From Crocinitomicaceae bacterium (GTDB taxonomy: Bacteria > Bacteroidota > Bacteroidia > Flavobacteriales_D > Crocinitomicaceae), in the NCBI GenBank assembly GCA_029238665.1, contig JAQWFQ010000015.1, positions 1-46,965 on the forward strand: a stretch of 46,965 bases of DNA. The letters are read 5' to 3'. Below, in pieces: positions 328-46,965 of the stretch. The notes under the pieces were generated by a model. The model saw only the letters and a program-made list of their open reading frames with translations, ran no database searches and was not told the DNA's origin. The number at the start of each line of letters is the position of its first letter. Position 1 is the first letter of the stretch. Made by a program: the position numbers and the translations under genes.

Positions 328-2928
328 TTACCTAATAATGGTAACGTGACCGCTATAGGTGTACTTGCCATCGTTTAGAATATCTTTTGTTCTTACAACC
401 CAATTGTACGTTCCTTGGTCTAAAGGTTTTCCTTTATAATTTCCATCCCAAGGAACTGTAATGTCATGAGACTCCCAAATGATTTCTCCCCAACGGTTGA
501 AAATTAATAATTCAAAGTTATAAGGGTCAACTCCCTCCATGTGAATGAGCCAATTTTGATTGAACTCATCTCCATCAGGAGTAAATGTATTGGGTGCGTA
601 AATAATCACCTCAGGAAATACAATCAATTCATAATCCATGGTGTCAACACAACCTAAATCTGAAGTGGTGATCAAGGTAACATTATAAGACCCCGAAACG
701 CCATCAGGAAAACTTACCTCAACATCTTCTTGAGTGGATGATGAAGGGAATCCACCATCAAAATACCATTGATACGTAGACCCATAAAAGGAACTGTTTT
801 GAAAGTTTACTGTTGTATTAAACATAGTTACCGGGTTAGGTGCATGCTTAAAGTCAGCAACTGGCTTAGGCCTTACATTTAATACATCATCAAATGTCAA
901 TGAATCGACACATCCTTCAAATGAAGTGACTAGCATTTGAATGTCATAAAGACCTGCCATTAATACATCCGTTACAATTGTATCTTGGTTAAGAAATTGC
1001 TGATTTCCTGCTACTAACCAATAGTTATATTGATTCATCGTTGGGTCTGTTGTATTCACAATTGTAAATACTGCAGGCTCACATTGATCTGGATTTAAAA
1101 TGGTGTATTGAGGAACAGGCAGTTCAGCTACATTAATATTTGTAGTTAAAATCAATGGCGTAGACTCGCAACCGTCTGTAATTGTAACCGTATAATCTGT
1201 TGTTATGGCAGGGTTAGCTGTAATTGTATGACTTCCTACCCCGTTATGAACATCACCTGAACTCCAAACAAAATCATATGGAGCTCCCAGTCCACCAACA
1301 ACCGTAGCAGTAACAGGTGTTGAATACGTAGGGCAAATTGTATCCCAACCCGTAATTGTCCCTGTTAATGGATCTCGGATTGTAACATCAATAGAAAGCG
1401 GTGTTGAAACACAACCATTTTCATTTTCAGCATAAACTGTATAGGTTGTTGCAATCGATGGGTTTTCAGATTGATCCGCATCTGTGTTTAATGTCTGGTC
1501 CCAATGAAACAAATACGATACTCCACCAGTAGCCGAAGCAGATAGGTAGGCCGTTCCATTTTCACAGATTAAGGTGTCATTGCTCACCGATAAAACAACT
1601 GGTGCAGGGTCAATAACATCAACATCTACACACTTTTGACATCCCAGTGGAGATTTTGCACAAACATTATATGTACCTGCATTAAATACCACTGCAAACG
1701 AATCTGCTTGCCATGTTACCCCCCCGTCAAAACTATACTCATTTGCGCCTAAACTCGTAATGTGAATTTCTCCGTCAAACAAGGCTTCACAAGAAGGTGA
1801 AACTGAAGAAGCACTAATGGATAAGTCTTCAACAACCACAGTCATTGTATCATAAAAGTTACCACACGTTGTATTTCCTTCTCTAAAGTAAAATTCATAT
1901 GTCCCTACCTGATTTACGGAAACAACTGCATTTGGGTCAGACCAGTTTGGCACAAAATTAACCGTTGGTACTGGCACAATTCCAGCTGCTGAATACGACC
2001 ACAATTGTGTATTTGTCACGTCACTAGCAACACCACTTAAATTTATTGGCGAACCTAAACAGAGGACTTGATCAAGGCCAGCATCAGGTACAGGCTCGTC
2101 AACAACCGTAATTGTAAACTCAATGGTATCAACAATTGCGCCTTGATCCCAAACTTCAACTTGATAGTCCGTTGTTACAAGTGGGTCAACTATAACTCCC
2201 GCAACCCCTGTTAAATCAGAGACATTGTTTGTCACCAACCAGTTTACAGTAGCGTTCACCCATCCTGAGCTTAATACTAAGTCTACCGTAGCTGAACTTC
2301 CAGCACAAATTGTTTGGTCAGGTGTTCCTCCAGAACAGCCAATTGAAGCTCCAGAAGGAGGAAATGTTAAGTTAACTACCCCAGAGGCTGCACTATAATT
2401 TGAAAACATTAAAATATAAGCTGTTCCAGCAACTACAGGTATCGCTGGCTGGAAGTTTCCTGCAACACCACCTGCTGGTGTTCCACTAGCAGACATACCT
2501 GTAAACCCTGCAGAAGATGCATTCCAATTACAAGCGGCTGGCGAAACTAAATTATTTTGAATGTCTGAACAACCTGTTACAGGGTCGTATGGCCACAGTT
2601 CCCAATCATAAAAACCACTCCCTCCAGCGGCTCCAATTTCGAACTCTAACAGCCCGGTAGTTGTTACATTTAAAACAAACCAATTTGGGTTCAACTCACC
2701 TGAAAAAAGGCAACCACTATTTACTCCTGCTGGATTTGTATTTGGGTTAGAAATATTTCCAGAAGGGGGCACAACAGGATTTGGGCTAGCTCCAGTAGTT
2801 AAAGGAAAAGGAACAGGTATCGAGTTACAGATATTTTGTGCCTGATTACATGCATTGGACGCTGTTGGCGCCTGAGCCATAGAGACTAAACCGATAATCG
2901 TTAATACGGCCGTTATAATTACTTTCAT
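328..2928 (-). CDS. Large secreted T9SS adhesin-like protein with gliding-type C-terminal domain
   Basis: 866 residues. The signal peptide is residues 1-20 (MKVIITAVLTIIGLVSMAQA). The middle holds Ig/PKD-like beta modules, including a SprB-like repeat near residues 370-445 (features such as GEIHITSLG, EYSFDGG and GTYNVCAKS) and a PKD domain near 690-770. The last ~90 residues are a type B T9SS sorting domain: APNTFTPDGDEFNQNW, then IFNRWGEIIWES, WDGNYKGKPLDQGTYNW and SGHVTIIR. The protein is therefore expected to be exported by Sec, passed through the type IX system and placed on the cell surface or released. The ligand is unknown. It follows the small secreted protein by 8 bases, so the two are probably co-transcribed. 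Confidence 0.85.
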   Translation of the reverse strand: MKVIITAVLTIIGLVSMAQAPTASNACNQAQNICNSIPVPFPLTTGASPNPVVPPSGNISNPNTNPAGVNSGCLFSGELNPNWFVLNVTTTGLLEFEIGAAGGSGFYDWELWPYDPVTGCSDIQNNLVSPAACNWNASSAGFTGMSASGTPAGGVAGNFQPAIPVVAGTAYILMFSNYSAASGVVNLTFPPSGASIGCSGGTPDQTICAGSSATVDLVLSSGWVNATVNWLVTNNVSDLTGVAGVIVDPLVTTDYQVEVWDQGAIVDTIEFTITVVDEPVPDAGLDQVLCLGSPINLSGVASDVTNTQLWSYSAAGIVPVPTVNFVPNWSDPNAVVSVNQVGTYEFYFREGNTTCGNFYDTMTVVVEDLSISASSVSPSCEALFDGEIHITSLGANEYSFDGGVTWQADSFAVVFNAGTYNVCAKSPLGCQKCVDVDVIDPAPVVLSVSNDTLICENGTAYLSASATGGVSYLFHWDQTLNTDADQSENPSIATTYTVYAENENGCVSTPLSIDVTIRDPLTGTITGWDTICPTYSTPVTATVVGGLGAPYDFVWSSGDVHNGVGSHTITANPAITTDYTVTITDGCESTPLILTTNINVAELPVPQYTILNPDQCEPAVFTIVNTTDPTMNQYNYWLVAGNQQFLNQDTIVTDVLMAGLYDIQMLVTSFEGCVDSLTFDDVLNVRPKPVADFKHAPNPVTMFNTTVNFQNSSFYGSTYQWYFDGGFPSSSTQEDVEVSFPDGVSGSYNVTLITTSDLGCVDTMDYELIVFPEVIIYAPNTFTPDGDEFNQNWLIHMEGVDPYNFELLIFNRWGEIIWESHDITVPWDGNYKGKPLDQGTYNWVVRTKDILNDGKYTYSGHVTIIR

Positions 2929-2936
2929 ATCTTCGT

Positions 2937-3290
2937 TTATTGACAGTTAGTAAATGGGTATGGGTTCATTACATCAATACCGTGTACACCTATTTGAACA
3001 CAGTGAATTGTATACGCGTACTCATCAAACCATGAAATGAAATCTGCTCGAGAAAGTGTTTCTAAGTTCGCCGTTATAATTAATGCTCTTTGTGTATGGT
3101 AGTCCAACCGAACCATTTCAATGTTTGGGTTGTTATACATTTCATTTTGCAAAGCTTGCATCTCAGATTGATCTGAAATATCAAACATACACTGAGCAAA
3201 CAGGCGTGTGTCGGTGTAATTTGTGGTTTGCGTCTGCGCATAAGATTGACTTAAACACAAAACAGCAACTAGGGATATTAGTAATTTCAT
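2937..3290 (-). CDS. Small secreted protein, possible HMA-like fold without metal cysteines
   Basis: 117 residues with a signal peptide (MKLLISLVAVLCLSQSYAQ). The mature part alternates as strand (RLFAQCMFDI), helix (SEMQALQNEMYNNPN), two strands (IEMVRLDYHTQRALIIT), helix (SRADFISWFDEYAY) and strand (TIHCVQIGV). This is the beta-alpha-beta-beta-alpha-beta order of heavy-metal-associated (HMA) domains, but the CxxC metal site is absent. I do not recognise a named family. It is the first gene of a two-gene unit with the T9SS adhesin downstream, so it may assist or accompany that protein. Fold assignment is inference from the secondary-structure pattern. Confidence 0.6.
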   Translation of the reverse strand: MKLLISLVAVLCLSQSYAQTQTTNYTDTRLFAQCMFDISDQSEMQALQNEMYNNPNIEMVRLDYHTQRALIITANLETLSRADFISWFDEYAYTIHCVQIGVHGIDVMNPYPFTNCQ

Positions 3291-3418
3291 ATTGAATCTT
3301 TTTTACATTGACGAAACACACATCAAATGGTTGCGTGTTCAATCAATATTCAATGTGAAATATACTCTTTTTTTAGCTAAAAAGTGTACTCATCTTGTTC
3401 TTATAGCGCTACGAAAGA

Positions 3419-5802
<2,384 letters not shown>

Positions 5803-42495: not shown

Positions 42496-43125
42496 TTGAA
42501 AACAGAAAAAAGTCAATACGAGTCTATTCTAATAAAATACTTGCCCCCCGAATATATTGATATGGTGGTGGCTTTATTGTTGAAATACCCCGTTACATTT
42601 AAAGTGGTAAAACCACGAAAAACAAAATTAGGCGATTTTAGAGCAAGTGTAAAACAGGAGAAACCACAAATCACTATAAATGGCAACCTAAATCCTTATT
42701 CATTTTTAATCACGACACTCCATGAGTTTGCACATTTAATTAACTTCAATGTAAATGGTCCGTTTGTTGGTGCCCATGGAAAAGAATGGAAAAAAATATA
42801 TGCTGAATTAATTTTGCCAGCGATTGAATTAAAAAAATTACCCTTAGATATTGAGTCAGCATTATTAAACTCATTGGTTAATGTGAAAGCATCGTCTTGT
42901 TCAGACACCAATCTAAATCGCACCCTAATTAAATACGATAAACCGGAAGAAAATCAGGTAACGCTAGAGACCATTGATAAAAATGGTATTTTTGTGCTCA
43001 ACGGAAAAACCTTCCGAAAAGGCACGCTTAGAAGGACCCGTTATTATTGCATTGAAACCAAATCAAACAAAGCGTATTTGGTCAATGGATTAGCACATGT
43101 TAAAGAACTAAAAGATGAAAGATAA
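42496..43125 (+). CDS. SprT-like zinc metalloprotein
   Basis: 209 residues from TTG 42496 (KTEKSQYESILIKYLPPEY). No ATG occurs before codon 23; the frame also offers TTG at 42463. The SprT-like region has RKTKLGDFRASVKQEKPQIT, the zinc motif TTLHEFAHLIN (HExxH at residues 76-80) and a third ligand in GAHGKEWKKIYAEL. The family includes SprT and the DNA-protein crosslink protease SPRTN, but bacterial function is not established. The C-terminal part lacks an obvious zinc ribbon. It overlaps manC by 11 bases. Confidence 0.82.
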   Translation: MKTEKSQYESILIKYLPPEYIDMVVALLLKYPVTFKVVKPRKTKLGDFRASVKQEKPQITINGNLNPYSFLITTLHEFAHLINFNVNGPFVGAHGKEWKKIYAELILPAIELKKLPLDIESALLNSLVNVKASSCSDTNLNRTLIKYDKPEENQVTLETIDKNGIFVLNGKTFRKGTLRRTRYYCIETKSNKAYLVNGLAHVKELKDER

Positions 43126-44176
43126 TTACAGTATAATAATGGCCGGAGGGATAGGAAGTCGATTTTGGCCTATGTCTGTTCCTGAAAGACCCAAACAGTT
43201 TTTAGATGTATTGGGAATTGGCAAGTCATTAATTCAAATGACATACGAGCGTCTACTTCATGTTTCACCTGTAGAAAATATCTATGTTGTTACAAATGCA
43301 CAGTATAAAGAAATGGTTTTGGAGCAGATTCCAACGCTTAAGCCTGAGCAGGTTTTAACAGAACCTGAACGTAAAAATACGGCTCCTTGTATTGCATATG
43401 CAGCAGCAAAAATCCATTCAATAAATGAAAATGCAAACCTGATAATTTCACCTGCAGACCACCTAATAATTCAAGAACAAAACTTTAAAGGGTCTATTGA
43501 AACTGCAATTAATGCTGCCTCAAAAGGAAGGATTGCAACCATTGGAATTCAACCAACACGCCCTGATACAGGCTACGGTTATATTGAAGTCGAAAAAACT
43601 TCAGAAGTAAAGCCCAATGATGTAATGATGGTTAAGCAGTTTCGTGAAAAGCCAAACTTATCCAAGGCCAATGAATTCTTAGCATCTGGAAATTTTTATT
43701 GGAATTCTGGAATTTTCATATGGAAATCAGCAACTGTACTTGATGCCCTTAAATCATTTCAACCTGCATTGTTTGAATTATTTGGTTCAAACTTAGCAAT
43801 GTACAAAGGAGCAGATGAGCAAGATCAGGTTAATCATGCCTTTGCTGTTTGTGAAGACATTTCAATTGATTTTGCCGTAATGGAACATGCTCAAAACATT
43901 GATGTTGTGTTGGCTAATTTTGATTGGTCTGATTTAGGTACGTGGGGTAGTTTAGATCTTCACCTAACTAAAGATGAAAGCAACAATGCCATTGTGGGAG
44001 ATAGCGTTCACACGTTTAACTCCAAAAACTGCATCATCAATATTCCAAATGGAAAAACTACTGTTATTGATGGTTTAGATGGATATATCGTTATACAGTC
44101 AGAAGACAAACTCATGATTCTTCAGAAAGAAAATGAGCAAGAACTAAAACAATACCTTTCAACAATAAAAAAATAA
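43115..44176 (+). CDS. manC: Mannose-1-phosphate guanylyltransferase
   Basis: 353 residues, the single-domain form without the C-terminal phosphomannose isomerase domain. It makes GDP-mannose from mannose-1-phosphate and GTP for surface glycans. The nucleotidyl-transferase signature is IIMAGGIGSRFWPMSVPERP followed by KQFLDVLG; other blocks are EPERKNTAPCIAYAAAKI, ISPADHLI, TRPDTGYGYIEV, FYWNSGIFIWKSATVLDALK and NFDWSDLGTWGSL. It overlaps the SprT-like gene by 11 bases and ends at a bidirectional terminator. Confidence 0.94.
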   Translation: MKDNYSIIMAGGIGSRFWPMSVPERPKQFLDVLGIGKSLIQMTYERLLHVSPVENIYVVTNAQYKEMVLEQIPTLKPEQVLTEPERKNTAPCIAYAAAKIHSINENANLIISPADHLIIQEQNFKGSIETAINAASKGRIATIGIQPTRPDTGYGYIEVEKTSEVKPNDVMMVKQFREKPNLSKANEFLASGNFYWNSGIFIWKSATVLDALKSFQPALFELFGSNLAMYKGADEQDQVNHAFAVCEDISIDFAVMEHAQNIDVVLANFDWSDLGTWGSLDLHLTKDESNNAIVGDSVHTFNSKNCIINIPNGKTTVIDGLDGYIVIQSEDKLMILQKENEQELKQYLSTIKK

Positions 44177-44183
44177 CGTAAAG

Positions 44184-44210
44184 GGGGGAGTAATCACTGA
44201 TTACTCCCCC
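44184..44210. terminator. Bidirectional terminator between manC and the plug-domain gene
   Basis: GGGGGAGTAATCA pairs with TGATTACTCCCCC almost without a loop. It lies 7 bases after the manC stop and 23 bases after the stop of the convergent minus-strand gene. The T-runs are weak on both sides. Confidence 0.7.
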
Positions 44211-44233: not shown

Positions 44234-44962
44234 TTACTTTCCACTCCGCAATTGTTCTGAACGGTATTTACGGTATAGGTCGAAATAGCTCTTTGATTCC
44301 ATAATTACGACCCCTCCTAATGTATCTCCATATTTTGCAGGAAGCCCTCCTGTATAAACCATCATTCTACCAATAGAACACCCTGGAACGGACCCCACAC
44401 TACTCGTCTTTACACCATCAACTAAGTATAGCATATCCCCTTTTCTTGCACCTCTAAAAACCAACTCACCATCGTCTGTTTGGCGCACATCTGAAGACAT
44501 GGAAGAGATTAAACCCTTCACATCAAACTTTGCTGGAGACTTATCAATTTCCTCAGAGGTCAATGTCGTTACCGGTAAATTACCATCAATGAGTCTAACG
44601 GCGTCTCTATAGTACATGACATTGAGTGTTCCTTTTGTAACTATAGTACTCACAAAAGCAATATCTCCAACCTGATCAAACCCATTCATAGGCACATCAA
44701 CAGGGATGTTTTTCATTGTATCTTCATACTGCTTAATGTTTAACATGTATGCACCTGCTGGAATTGCACTAATTCTAAATTTCCCTTCATAATCTGTTCT
44801 AGACCTATATTTAATGCCATTATCATCAATATATGCCTCCGCTCCGTAAACTGGATCGCCTGTTTTCTTGTCAAGTACTGTTCCTAACACTTCACCTAGC
44901 GAACCTTGGCCAAACAAGATTCCTGTTGTTAAAATTGCCGTCATCATTAGTACATTTTTCAT
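44234..44962 (-). CDS. Secreted carboxypeptidase-regulatory-like plus TonB-plug protein, no barrel
   Basis: 242 residues. Signal peptide (MKNVLMMTAILTTGILFGQ), then a CarboxypepD_reg-like domain (~20-110; GTVLDKKTGDPVYGAEAYID, TDYEGKFRISAIPAGAYMLN), then a TonB-receptor plug-like domain (~125-235; ERDVKGL-type block SPAKFDVKGLISSMSSDVRQ, ELVFRGARKGDMLYLVDGVK, MMVYTGGLPAKYGDTLGGVV). The sequence then ends; there is no 22-strand barrel and the downstream bases hold a terminator, so it is not a truncated receptor by frameshift in view. Probably periplasmic, perhaps attached to another outer-membrane protein. Function unknown. Confidence 0.78.
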   Translation of the reverse strand: MKNVLMMTAILTTGILFGQGSLGEVLGTVLDKKTGDPVYGAEAYIDDNGIKYRSRTDYEGKFRISAIPAGAYMLNIKQYEDTMKNIPVDVPMNGFDQVGDIAFVSTIVTKGTLNVMYYRDAVRLIDGNLPVTTLTSEEIDKSPAKFDVKGLISSMSSDVRQTDDGELVFRGARKGDMLYLVDGVKTSSVGSVPGCSIGRMMVYTGGLPAKYGDTLGGVVIMESKSYFDLYRKYRSEQLRSGK

Positions 44963-45039
44963 AATTTCTCGTTTTAAGTTTGAATGCTTTATAACTAAGA
45001 TGATAGTAAAATTAAATTTCCATAAATAATGGATAAAAA

Positions 45040-45066
45040 AAAGCTCTCAACATGGTTGAGAGCTTT
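45040..45066 (-). terminator. Terminator of fabD
   Basis: AAAGCTCTCAAC pairs with 45055-45066 around a 3-base loop, followed by a T-run on the minus strand, 23 bases after the fabD stop. Confidence 0.8.
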
Positions 45067-45088: not shown

Positions 45089-45973
45089 TTATTCCATTCC
45101 TGCACTAGAACATGAAAATTGACGATCTACTTTTTTAAACAAGCCCTGTAACACTTTACCTGGCCCAACTTCAATTACTTCAGTTGCACCCTCTGCAATC
45201 ATTGTTTGCATTGTTTGTGTCCATCTTACTGGCGCTGTTAATTGCGCCATTAAATTCTTTTTAATTTCTGAAGGATCAGAAACGGCACTGGCAACAACGT
45301 TCTGATAAACAGGACAAACTGGCGTGTTAAATTCAGTTCCATCAATTGCTGCTGCTAACTGTTCGCGAGCAGGCTCCATTAATGGAGAATGAAACGCCCC
45401 ACCTACGGGTAAAATCAAGGCTCTTCTTGCACCTGCCTCTGTTAGTTTAGCGCATGCTTCTTCTACTGCTGAAACAGCACCAGAAATCACCAATTGCCCA
45501 GGACAATTATAATTAGCGGCAACAACAATACCATTGACCCCGTCACAAACACCTTCAACTACCTGGTCTTCTAGCCCAATAATAGCTGCCATTGTAGACG
45601 GCTCATTTTCACAAGCATCTTGCATTGCAAGTGCACGCTGTGAAACTAACTTTAACCCATCTTCAAAACTCAAAGTCTTGTTTGCAACCAATGCTGACAA
45701 TTCGCCTAAAGAATGCCCTGCAACCATATCAGGTTGAAATGAATCACCAATGCAAGCAGCAAGGATTGTCGAATGTAAAAAGATAGCAGGTTGCGTTACT
45801 TTTGTTTCTTTTAACTCTTCTGCTGTTCCTTCAAACATGATTTTAGTAATATCAAATCCAAGAATTTCATTTGCCTTATCGAACATTTCTTTGGCAATAG
45901 AAGAATTATCATAAAGGTCTTTACCCATTCCTGAGAATTGAGCTCCTTGACCAGGGAATACATATGCTTTCAT
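45089..45973 (-). CDS. fabD: Malonyl-CoA:ACP transacylase
   Basis: 294 residues from ATG 45973 (MKAYVFPGQGAQFSGMGKDL); an ATG two codons earlier (45979) is also possible. The active serine is Ser88 in VAGHSLGEL; the catalytic histidine lies in GGAFHSPLMEPA, and the oxyanion region in FPGQGAQF. It moves malonyl from CoA to ACP at the start of fatty-acid synthesis. The end EVGPGKVLQGLFKKVDRQFS is typical, with a few extra residues. It stands alone here, between its own promoter and terminator, not in a fab operon. Confidence 0.95.
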   Translation of the reverse strand: MKAYVFPGQGAQFSGMGKDLYDNSSIAKEMFDKANEILGFDITKIMFEGTAEELKETKVTQPAIFLHSTILAACIGDSFQPDMVAGHSLGELSALVANKTLSFEDGLKLVSQRALAMQDACENEPSTMAAIIGLEDQVVEGVCDGVNGIVVAANYNCPGQLVISGAVSAVEEACAKLTEAGARRALILPVGGAFHSPLMEPAREQLAAAIDGTEFNTPVCPVYQNVVASAVSDPSEIKKNLMAQLTAPVRWTQTMQTMIAEGATEVIEVGPGKVLQGLFKKVDRQFSCSSAGME

Positions 45974-45988
45974 TGTCATAATTTTGTA

Positions 45989-46017
45989 CAAATTTAATTA
46001 AAGTTGTCGTTTCGCAA
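45989..46017 (-). promoter_or_regulatory. Promoter of fabD
   Basis: Minus strand: TTG at 46017-46015, an 18-base spacer and TAAATTTG at 45996-45989, an exact TAnnTTTG. The start would be near 45985, giving a leader of about 5-12 bases. The -33 element abuts the terminator of the upstream gene. Confidence 0.6.
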
Positions 46018-46096: not shown

Positions 46097-46965
46097 TTAT
46101 TTAATCACAACTCTTTCAACCATAGATCCGTTATTGTTAGATACTTCAACTAAGTATACTCCTGTACCATTTCCTGATAAATCAAGTGTTGTAGCAGAAG
46201 TAGCTTCTTTCGTTAAAACAACTTGTCCTAACATATCGTAAACAACGATTGTATTAGAAGCATTGTTATTGTTAGAAACATTAACAATTCCTTGAGAAGG
46301 ATTAGGATAGATAGAAACACCTTCTAAAGCATTTTCTTCAATTCCTGCTCCCCAATCGTTACCCATCAATAGACGGATACCAAGTGCTGTACCGTTAGAA
46401 TAAGACTGGTCTCCTGGAATGTAAATAGCAGCTGTTGTGTAAGGCTGATCAACTGTTCTATCATCCAATACACGAATATCAGTACTGTTACCGTTACTAT
46501 ACAACTCAATTGCAGCATAGTACTCACCTGCGCTCAATGTAATTGGAGCATCAAAGTAAACATACATGTATCCGTCTGTAATGTTTTGATCTGTCACCGT
46601 TCCTACTTGTGCATTGTATAATGAACTCATATCATCTGCCCAGAATGTAGCTGTATCTTTTATAGATCCGTAAACTTCTGCACCTGCAACAGTTCCTGAA
46701 GCCAACATGATTTGCATACCTGAAACTTCAGTAGCTGCTTTGATGTGATACATAGAAGCCAATACTAAACCATCTTCACCACCTGTGAATGAATTTGTTC
46801 CAATAGAAGTTAAATCTAAGTCTGCAGCTGGGTAAACATCAATACCATCTGTAGAGTAAACCATTTGTGGCGCTGTTGTTACTTCGAATGTTCTTCCCAA
46901 AACATTGTTTCCAAAAGAAGCTCCAGCAGTTTCTTCATCAGAAACAGTTGTGTAAGTTCCTGTAT
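46097..46965 (-). CDS. T9SS cargo protein with Por-type C-terminal sorting domain, 5' end outside window
   Basis: The frame is open to the right edge (288 visible residues), so the N-terminus and signal peptide are missing; the internal TTG near 46900 is not taken as the start. Residues before the tail form a beta-rich, Asp/Gly/Thr-rich domain (SFTGGEDGLVLASMYHIKAA, ITLSAGEYYAAIELYSNGNS, RVLDDRTVDQPYTTAAIYIP). The last ~70 residues are a type A T9SS signal: GVSIYPNPSQGIVNVSNNN, IVVYDMLGQVVLT, TGVYLVEVSNN and VERVVIK. It is exported through Sec and the type IX system. Catalytic function cannot be seen. Confidence 0.82.
   Translation of the reverse strand, partial: TGTYTTVSDEETAGASFGNNVLGRTFEVTTAPQMVYSTDGIDVYPAADLDLTSIGTNSFTGGEDGLVLASMYHIKAATEVSGMQIMLASGTVAGAEVYGSIKDTATFWADDMSSLYNAQVGTVTDQNITDGYMYVYFDAPITLSAGEYYAAIELYSNGNSTDIRVLDDRTVDQPYTTAAIYIPGDQSYSNGTALGIRLLMGNDWGAGIEENALEGVSIYPNPSQGIVNVSNNNNASNTIVVYDMLGQVVLTKEATSATTLDLSGNGTGVYLVEVSNNNGSMVERVVIK

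Follow-up and report, generated by a model that had tools for sequence, protein, structure and literature searches.

A conserved plug protein without a barrel in the Crocinitomicaceae and related families, a predicted member of an ECF sigma factor circuit

Introduction

Plug domains are usually regarded as the inseparable half of TonB-dependent receptors. What, then, is the role of a gene whose product has a plug and ends where the barrel would begin? Such a gene, here called PLUG, lies on a contig from a Crocinitomicaceae bacterium (assembly GCA_029238665.1, contig JAQWFQ010000015.1), of which the whole stretch analysed, 46,965 nucleotides in length, is referred to as the window. A first-pass annotation made from the sequence alone described the product as a CarboxypepD_reg-like domain joined to a plug-like domain, followed by a terminator. 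It proposed that the product is either a soluble module of the periplasm, with a separate barrel as its partner, or a new use of the plug fold, with decay of a receptor gene as the reading to be preferred if close relatives encoded full-length receptors.

Two known systems frame the question. In Fec signalling, the N-terminal domain of the receptor contacts the periplasmic part of the regulator, a surplus of the separate N-terminal domain blocks induction, and fecIR is transcribed under sigma-70, according to one review (PMC9249621). In the type IX secretion system (T9SS) of Bacteroidota, a protein named Plug closes the outer-membrane barrel of the SprA translocon from the periplasmic side (PMC7463736).

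Domains and fold of PLUG

The 242-residue open reading frame starts with ATG and has exactly the coordinates given in the first-pass annotation (Table 1). Pfam places CarboxypepD_reg (PF13620) at residues 25-83 (E 8.6e-9) and Plug (PF07715) at residues 129-218 (E 1.2e-5), both above the cut-off. The latter match reaches the end of the profile (position 107/107), and the stop codon follows 24 residues further on, leaving no barrel in the chain. Pfam, the fold matches described below and the end of the frame thus agree with the order originally read from the sequence, CarboxypepD_reg, plug and stop. Among the Pfam matches up to E 10 there is no STN family.

The signal peptide is presumed to be cleaved after Q19, and a crude lipobox pattern is absent from all 72 aligned PLUG sequences. 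Because a signal peptide is present and a lipobox is absent, PLUG is likely a soluble periplasmic protein. This part of the initial proposal is supported. As to the pairing with a separate barrel, no plugless barrel was seen beside PLUG.

Table 1. Features of the PLUG locus in the window (positions are those of the window).
Feature	Position	Strand	Basis or detail
PLUG (barrel-less CarboxypepD_reg-plug protein), 242 aa plus stop	44234..44962	(-)	ORF call, Pfam, alignment
Predicted signal peptide, residues 1-19	44906..44962	(-)	Hydrophobic N-terminus; Q19 in 57/72 aligned
CarboxypepD_reg domain (transthyretin-like, SusC NTE-like), residues 20-107	44642..44905	(-)	Pfam; fold match
Low-confidence linker, residues 108-128, at the receptor TonB-box position	44579..44641	(-)	pLDDT <50 at 110-127
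TonB plug domain, residues 129-224	44291..44578	(-)	Pfam; fold; invariant residues
C-terminal helix, SYFDLYR-like motif, residues 225-242, where a barrel would be	44237..44290	(-)	Model, alignment
Putative ECF-type promoter, TTTATGGAA-N15-CATC	44999..45026	(-)	-35 part 45018-45026, -10 part 44999-45002
12-pair terminator-like hairpin, T-poor tail, between PLUG and convergent gene	44184..44210	(-)	
Terminator-like hairpin after upstream gene, parting that gene from the PLUG promoter	45040..45066	(-)	
fabD-like gene (named by eye), conserved upstream neighbour	45089..45991	(-)	Cluster c2, 22/23 loci
manC-like gene (named by eye), conserved convergent neighbour	43115..44176	(+)	Cluster c3, 21/23 loci

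An AlphaFold2 model built with 75 sequences (mean pLDDT 78.5, pTM 0.45) consists of a transthyretin-like domain, a linker at residues 110-127, a plug and a C-terminal helix at residues 226-239. Its plug has a pLDDT of 77-84 as 10-residue block means; in an earlier model with 23 sequences the plug was poor, with a mean of 61. Structure prediction, suggested as a check in the first-pass annotation, aligns the plug with receptor plugs at Z 10-11: residues 125-226 with that of FyuA (Z 11.1, 98 residues, 2.5 A) and residues 127-225 with that of SusC BT1763 (Z 10.3, 98 residues, 2.7 A). Residues 21-108 match the NTE domain of a SusC (9hfj) with a Z of 10.3. A profile search of solved chains returned 41 matches (E up to 10), SusC, RagA and siderophore receptors among them. 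None of the 41 is named as the T9SS Plug, nor is any T9SS Plug or SprA chain named among the fold matches listed, absences that in themselves prove nothing.

Within the plug, residues D182, G183, A209, G212, D213 and G217 are invariant in 72/72 aligned sequences. Conservation extends past the plug into the C-terminal helix (Y226 in 69/72, F227 and D228 each in 68/72), and most aligned sequences end in a GG-V-V-x-x-E-[ST]-K-S-Y-F-D-L-Y-like stretch. In the linker, a crude TonB-box-like pattern occurs in 13 of the 72 sequences.

Genomic surroundings and conservation as a short gene

The neighbour counts in Table 1 refer to 23 loci, namely the window and 22 contigs of metagenome-assembled genomes (Crocinitomicaceae, other Flavobacteriales or Bacteroidetes). 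The terminator of the first-pass annotation corresponds to the hairpin downstream of PLUG. Beyond the fabD-like gene, at 46097-46963 on the minus strand, lies a gene cut by the window end that by eye resembles T9SS-sorted proteins; its relatives (cluster c1, mostly about 600 aa) lie upstream of fabD in 18 of the 23 loci. Allowing up to one mismatch, the window contains the ECF-type motif only once, upstream of PLUG, against an expectation of 0.15; it presumably acts as the PLUG promoter.

A search for homologues of the same length yielded 71 aligned relatives (72 sequences with the window) of 232-263 aa, in an alignment (A3) drawn from frames of 150-330 aa; from the 74 PLUG genes in that length range, A3 omits L049 and L051, near copies of L048. 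When no length filter was applied, the 53 frames with E <1e-40 in the first loci measured 237-294 aa, the sole exception being a frame of 175 aa that a contig end cuts short. The short gene is present in 27 of the 33 other genomes of the window's genus, in 26 of them as an open frame of 245-294 aa and in one truncated by a contig end, and it also occurs in other families of the order. Across the order sample, 165 of 245 genomes carry it, as judged by gaps in E-values. In the phylum sample, the short frames among the matches listed come from the window's own order (its own genome, G100 and G044), except in G334, where a 243-aa frame runs into a contig end.

Four close pairs of PLUG genes, which are not independent since L051 belongs to two of them, have dN/dS of 0.01-0.04, with dN far below dS. 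PLUG is thus under purifying selection at its present length. These observations bear on whether PLUG is a decayed or truncated receptor gene, as an early truncation would leave a plug without a barrel, and the window's genome contains L090, a receptor split over two frames, one with a plug and the other with a barrel. Homologue lengths and dN/dS rule this explanation out as far as sequence can, and the conserved C-terminal motif and promoter motif likewise speak against it, making it exceedingly improbable. The full-length receptors in close relatives that would have pointed to decay were not found; the close matches are short even without a length filter.

As for L090 itself (G000:C13:65500-71500, minus strand), it is split into frame 2499-3518, encoding 340 aa with CarboxypepD_reg and plug, and frame 1109-2413, encoding 435 aa with a barrel family. 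Either a broken gene or a faulty assembly may account for the split.

An operon with an ECF sigma factor and a TPR protein

In other families, PLUG is the first gene of an operon, followed on the same strand by an ECF sigma factor gene and then by a gene for a TPR protein of about 390 aa with one transmembrane segment. Complete PLUG-sigma-TPR loci number 15, the set covering 17 genomes and six families. Among the first 20 distant loci, a sigma gene is near PLUG in 12/12 from other families versus 0/8 from the window's own family. Ten of these 12 are complete operons, L132 breaks off behind sigma, and 3 kb separate the sigma gene from PLUG in L122; the five further complete operons (L167-L171) were picked because both genes had already matched together. 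Sigma70_r2 and r4_2 were confirmed in the three sigma copies scanned, with the remaining copies assigned by a custom profile.

The TPR protein has one strong hydrophobic segment that starts at residues 74-94 in 11/11 aligned sequences (84 in the copy of the window's genome), and its C-terminal end carries TPR-like repeats. No anti-sigma family matched it among Pfam and NCBIfam models, the matches being mostly to TPR-type models, and the copy in the window's genome matched no FecR family, only TPR-type and a few other models. Because of the place of its gene and its predicted topology (a short cytoplasmic N-terminus, one transmembrane segment and a periplasmic TPR end), it is presumed to be the anti-sigma factor of the ECF sigma factor.

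In the window's genome, the sigma/TPR pair is found at G000:C6, unlinked to PLUG. A similarly unlinked pair in L163 (G429:C1:1310000-1321000) has a 16S rRNA gene about 2.4 kb away, and many of the family's draft genomes place the pair about 2 kb from a contig end. An adjoining rRNA operon would fit these contig ends; rRNA was not found near the pair at the other four loci searched.

PLUG and the TPR protein also occur together across genomes. Of 245 genomes, 142 have both, 23 PLUG alone, 6 the TPR protein alone and 74 neither, giving an odds ratio of 76 with 29 discordant genomes; these counts ignore shared ancestry, and some of the discordant genomes are drafts. Within the genus the corresponding numbers are 19, 0, 1 and 3, and outside the family they are 35, 7, 0 and 48, so that 7 of the 23 PLUG-only genomes lie outside the family. 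Presence of PLUG was set by E-value gaps seen beforehand, with only some candidates per genome scored, and 7 genomes with weak matches to the TPR protein (E about 1e-11 to 1e-16) were scored as lacking it.

A few loci show other arrangements. In L119-L122, two or three PLUG genes lie close together in tandem, several with their own motif. In L118, L131 and L133, a NifU-like gene and a plug-bearing receptor recur near PLUG.

A promoter motif shared by PLUG and the sigma factor

Aligning the DNA 5' of the 74 PLUG genes revealed an unusual motif, TATGGAA(T)-N15-CATC. The pattern ATGGAA-N14..18-CATC occurs within 130 bp upstream of 63/74 PLUG genes, compared with 7/7400 mononucleotide shuffles. 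Several of the 11 PLUG genes lacking it have one-base variants, and two extra copies, the second PLUG in L030 and one of three in L121, have no motif.

PLUG and the sigma gene lie apart in the window's genome, yet TATGGAA-N15/16-CATC precedes each of them. Of 14 genomes of the family with an unlinked sigma gene, 11, among them the window's, have the motif upstream of it, and 12 do when one base is relaxed; the exact motif is missing in 3/14. The motif is inferred to be the promoter of the PLUG-linked ECF sigma factor.

Genome-wide in the window's organism, the exact pattern has 14 matches versus 7 for the reversed pattern, and the only two placed as promoters would be are those before PLUG and sigma. 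Allowing up to one mismatch gave 12 matches versus 9 reversed, and one further site is in promoter position, 15 bp upstream of a gene for a secreted 401-aa TPR protein. With reversed patterns matching this often, position alone marks sites in this genome. TPR proteins of two other genomes also have the motif (L252 and L303), and the 401-aa protein resembles that of L252 by eye.

Other plug proteins with the motif

Before the motif was known, four further barrel-less plug genes had been gathered by homology, three encoding VWA/YfbK-plug proteins and one an alpha-2-macroglobulin (A2M)-plug protein. All four have the motif (4/4), versus 0/5 receptors of the window's genome. A second set gave 5/5 VWA-plug genes versus 0/15 orthologues of that genome's 1280-aa receptor, L089, which combines to 9/9 barrel-less plug genes (8 VWA-plug, 1 A2M-plug) versus 0/20 receptors. 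VWA/YfbK and plug domains were confirmed in 8/8 VWA-plug proteins. "Receptor" is used here by length and homology, for five proteins of the window's genome (L089-L093) and for the 15 L089 orthologues without a Pfam scan; among the five, the sole Pfam match to a barrel family is that of the second frame of L090, with CarboxypepD_reg and plug matched in L089 and L092-L093, and CarboxypepD_reg only in L091. The split between barrel-less proteins and receptors is not absolute, because L239, a 663-aa plug protein that by length and sequence is probably a receptor, has the motif. A location of VWA-plug genes beside an ECF sigma gene was considered and rejected for L096-L098, where the neighbours by eye are pgk-like and thioredoxin-like.

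The wider predicted regulon

A stricter pattern gave 91 matches in 60 genomes of the family, versus 5 for the reversed pattern. Seven of these genomes lack both PLUG and a strong match to the TPR protein and together hold 1 motif match; the other 53 hold 90. From the 91 matches, 40 regions were chosen by eye as neither PLUG nor sigma and fetched; L253 showed no match, leaving 39. By an assignment made partly by eye, 32 of them fall into recurring classes, 4 are single (L220, L239, L244, L246) and 3 doubtful (L218, L229, L251). Among the 39 regions, 10 precede proteins with an N-terminal Cys motif and 10 precede secreted proteins of about 440 aa, some with a weak CarboxypepD_reg start. The regions further include 4 VWA-plug proteins, 1 VWA protein without a plug, 1 TPR protein, 2 tiny plug-like proteins and 1 A2M-like protein (L222) in which only MG2 and a weak bMG3 matched.

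In eight genomes of other families, the pattern gave 27 matches versus 8 reversed. Six of the 27 precede PLUG, 10 recurring families (4 Cys-motif proteins, 3 of about 440 aa, 1 TPR protein and 2 DUF4139 proteins with a CarboxypepD_reg insert) and 2 other open reading frames (L294, L307); the remaining 9 lie inside open reading frames, have none close by or are more than 110 bp off. The window's own genome gave no match to YfbK_C, and its predicted regulon is for this reason considered smaller than those of larger relatives.

The proteins of the recurring families have features of their own. The Cys-motif proteins (L217, L225, L228, L232, L234, L235, L240, L245, L250, L255, L298, L300, L310, L312), all motif-linked, share by eye an N-terminal stretch like PCxENWxxMxxxxxGxxCxxC, followed in those scanned by CarboxypepD_reg (L298, L300, L310) or a T9SS tail (L234). 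The tiny secreted proteins right behind the motif (L230 3236-3673, 146 aa; L233 3418-3720, 101 aa; both minus strand) have only plug-like DGxKV and GGLPxxYGD stretches and no Pfam match. The motif-bearing DUF4139 proteins of L308 and L293 have an inserted CarboxypepD_reg domain, followed in L308 by a stretch that by eye resembles the start of a plug.

Comparison with known systems

The PLUG operon resembles FecA-FecR-FecI in grouping an ECF sigma factor, a plug-bearing protein and a membrane protein whose C-terminal part is periplasmic, and in a sigma-type promoter motif upstream of the plug gene. It differs in that PLUG, unlike FecA, has no barrel and has CarboxypepD_reg in place of the N-terminal signalling domain, that the partner membrane protein has TPR repeats rather than a FecR domain, and that the PLUG-linked sigma gene, unlike fecIR, itself has the motif. 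In addition, the PLUG circuit, unlike Fec, has no known substrate. In Flavobacterium psychrophilum, the ECF motif SM6 has a CGT -10 box as opposed to the CATC of the PLUG motif (PMC9723704).

With SusC/RagA receptors and L089 (32% identity), PLUG shares the order of CarboxypepD_reg (NTE) and plug, but it closes with a helix after the plug. It resembles the VWA/YfbK and A2M plug proteins in lacking a barrel and having the same promoter motif, whereas those proteins join the plug to large modules. Searches of open PMC papers listed none that describes plug proteins without a barrel under ECF sigma control; such a regulon is apparently undescribed so far.

Proposed role of PLUG and rival explanations

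The operon, the promoter motif and the co-occurrence tie PLUG to one ECF sigma circuit. PLUG very probably belongs to the sigma regulon, and there is good reason to expect that it acts in the periplasm. That PLUG is a periplasmic member of an ECF envelope-response circuit, in which the plug fold is reused without a barrel, is the reading favoured here with some reserve. Of the two proposals in the first-pass annotation, it is the new use of the plug fold that gains support, from the operon, the promoter, the co-occurrence and the other barrel-less plug proteins. In this circuit, the TPR membrane protein would hold the ECF sigma factor until an envelope signal releases it, and the freed sigma factor would increase the expression of PLUG and of its own operon as well as, in larger genomes, that of other secreted proteins. 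PLUG would stay periplasmic, its plug and C-terminal helix serving to dock or to sense. By analogy with Fec signalling, it might be an unattached partner for the TPR domain in the periplasm; most simply, it would act as a feedback sensor that reports the state of the outer membrane to the anti-sigma factor, with VWA-plug and A2M-plug proteins as effectors recruited to its dock. Direct regulation of the anti-sigma factor by PLUG is tentative, at a little under an even chance, and a role as an effector without regulatory function is credible to a similar degree.

One form of the latter role, in itself rather unlikely, makes PLUG a product of the response, an emergency stopper that would act from the periplasmic side on open, damaged or misassembled barrels, with the same plug bringing VWA and alpha-2-macroglobulin domains to the barrel site. 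The plug fold is kept with its most conserved loops, A2M proteins with the motif exist (L099 with a plug, and L222), and the tandem multiplication of PLUG in L119-L122 suits an effector. Bacterial A2M proteins are linked to protease defence. However, the position of PLUG within the sigma operon in other families fits a regulator equally, and the stopper has no known barrel partner; a plug normally folds within its own barrel. It is very unlikely, in turn, that PLUG completes a plugless barrel in trans and so forms part of an ordinary TonB-dependent transporter. The conserved plug loops would fit such a split receptor, a receptor gene does lie two or more genes from PLUG in 3/20 loci (L118, L131, L133), and in L123 a plug protein of 914 aa is encoded nearby. 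Yet the recurrent receptor has its own plug, with a barrel in the two copies that are long enough, neither these receptors nor the L123 protein have the motif, and the crude TonB-box-like pattern occurs in the linker of only 13 of 72 sequences. The search for a conserved partner barrel proposed in the first-pass annotation thus returned no plugless barrel beside PLUG, only this plug-bearing receptor.

A broader version of the favoured circuit, unlikely but worth stating as conjecture, would be an order-wide response to envelope breach under the ECF sigma factor. Its common tool would be a barrel-free plug, on its own in PLUG and attached to VWA/YfbK or alpha-2-macroglobulin proteins in other cases, that docks on outer-membrane barrels from inside, with one protein reporting their state to the anti-sigma factor and others sealing or guarding the site.

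Significance

In PLUG, a conserved lineage retains the plug and loses the barrel, and its promoter and operon point to control by a dedicated sigma factor. The motif and the sigma/TPR pair provide a concrete handle, with one predicted regulon and one predicted regulator. Through them, secreted proteins without known function gain a candidate sigma factor and a candidate promoter.
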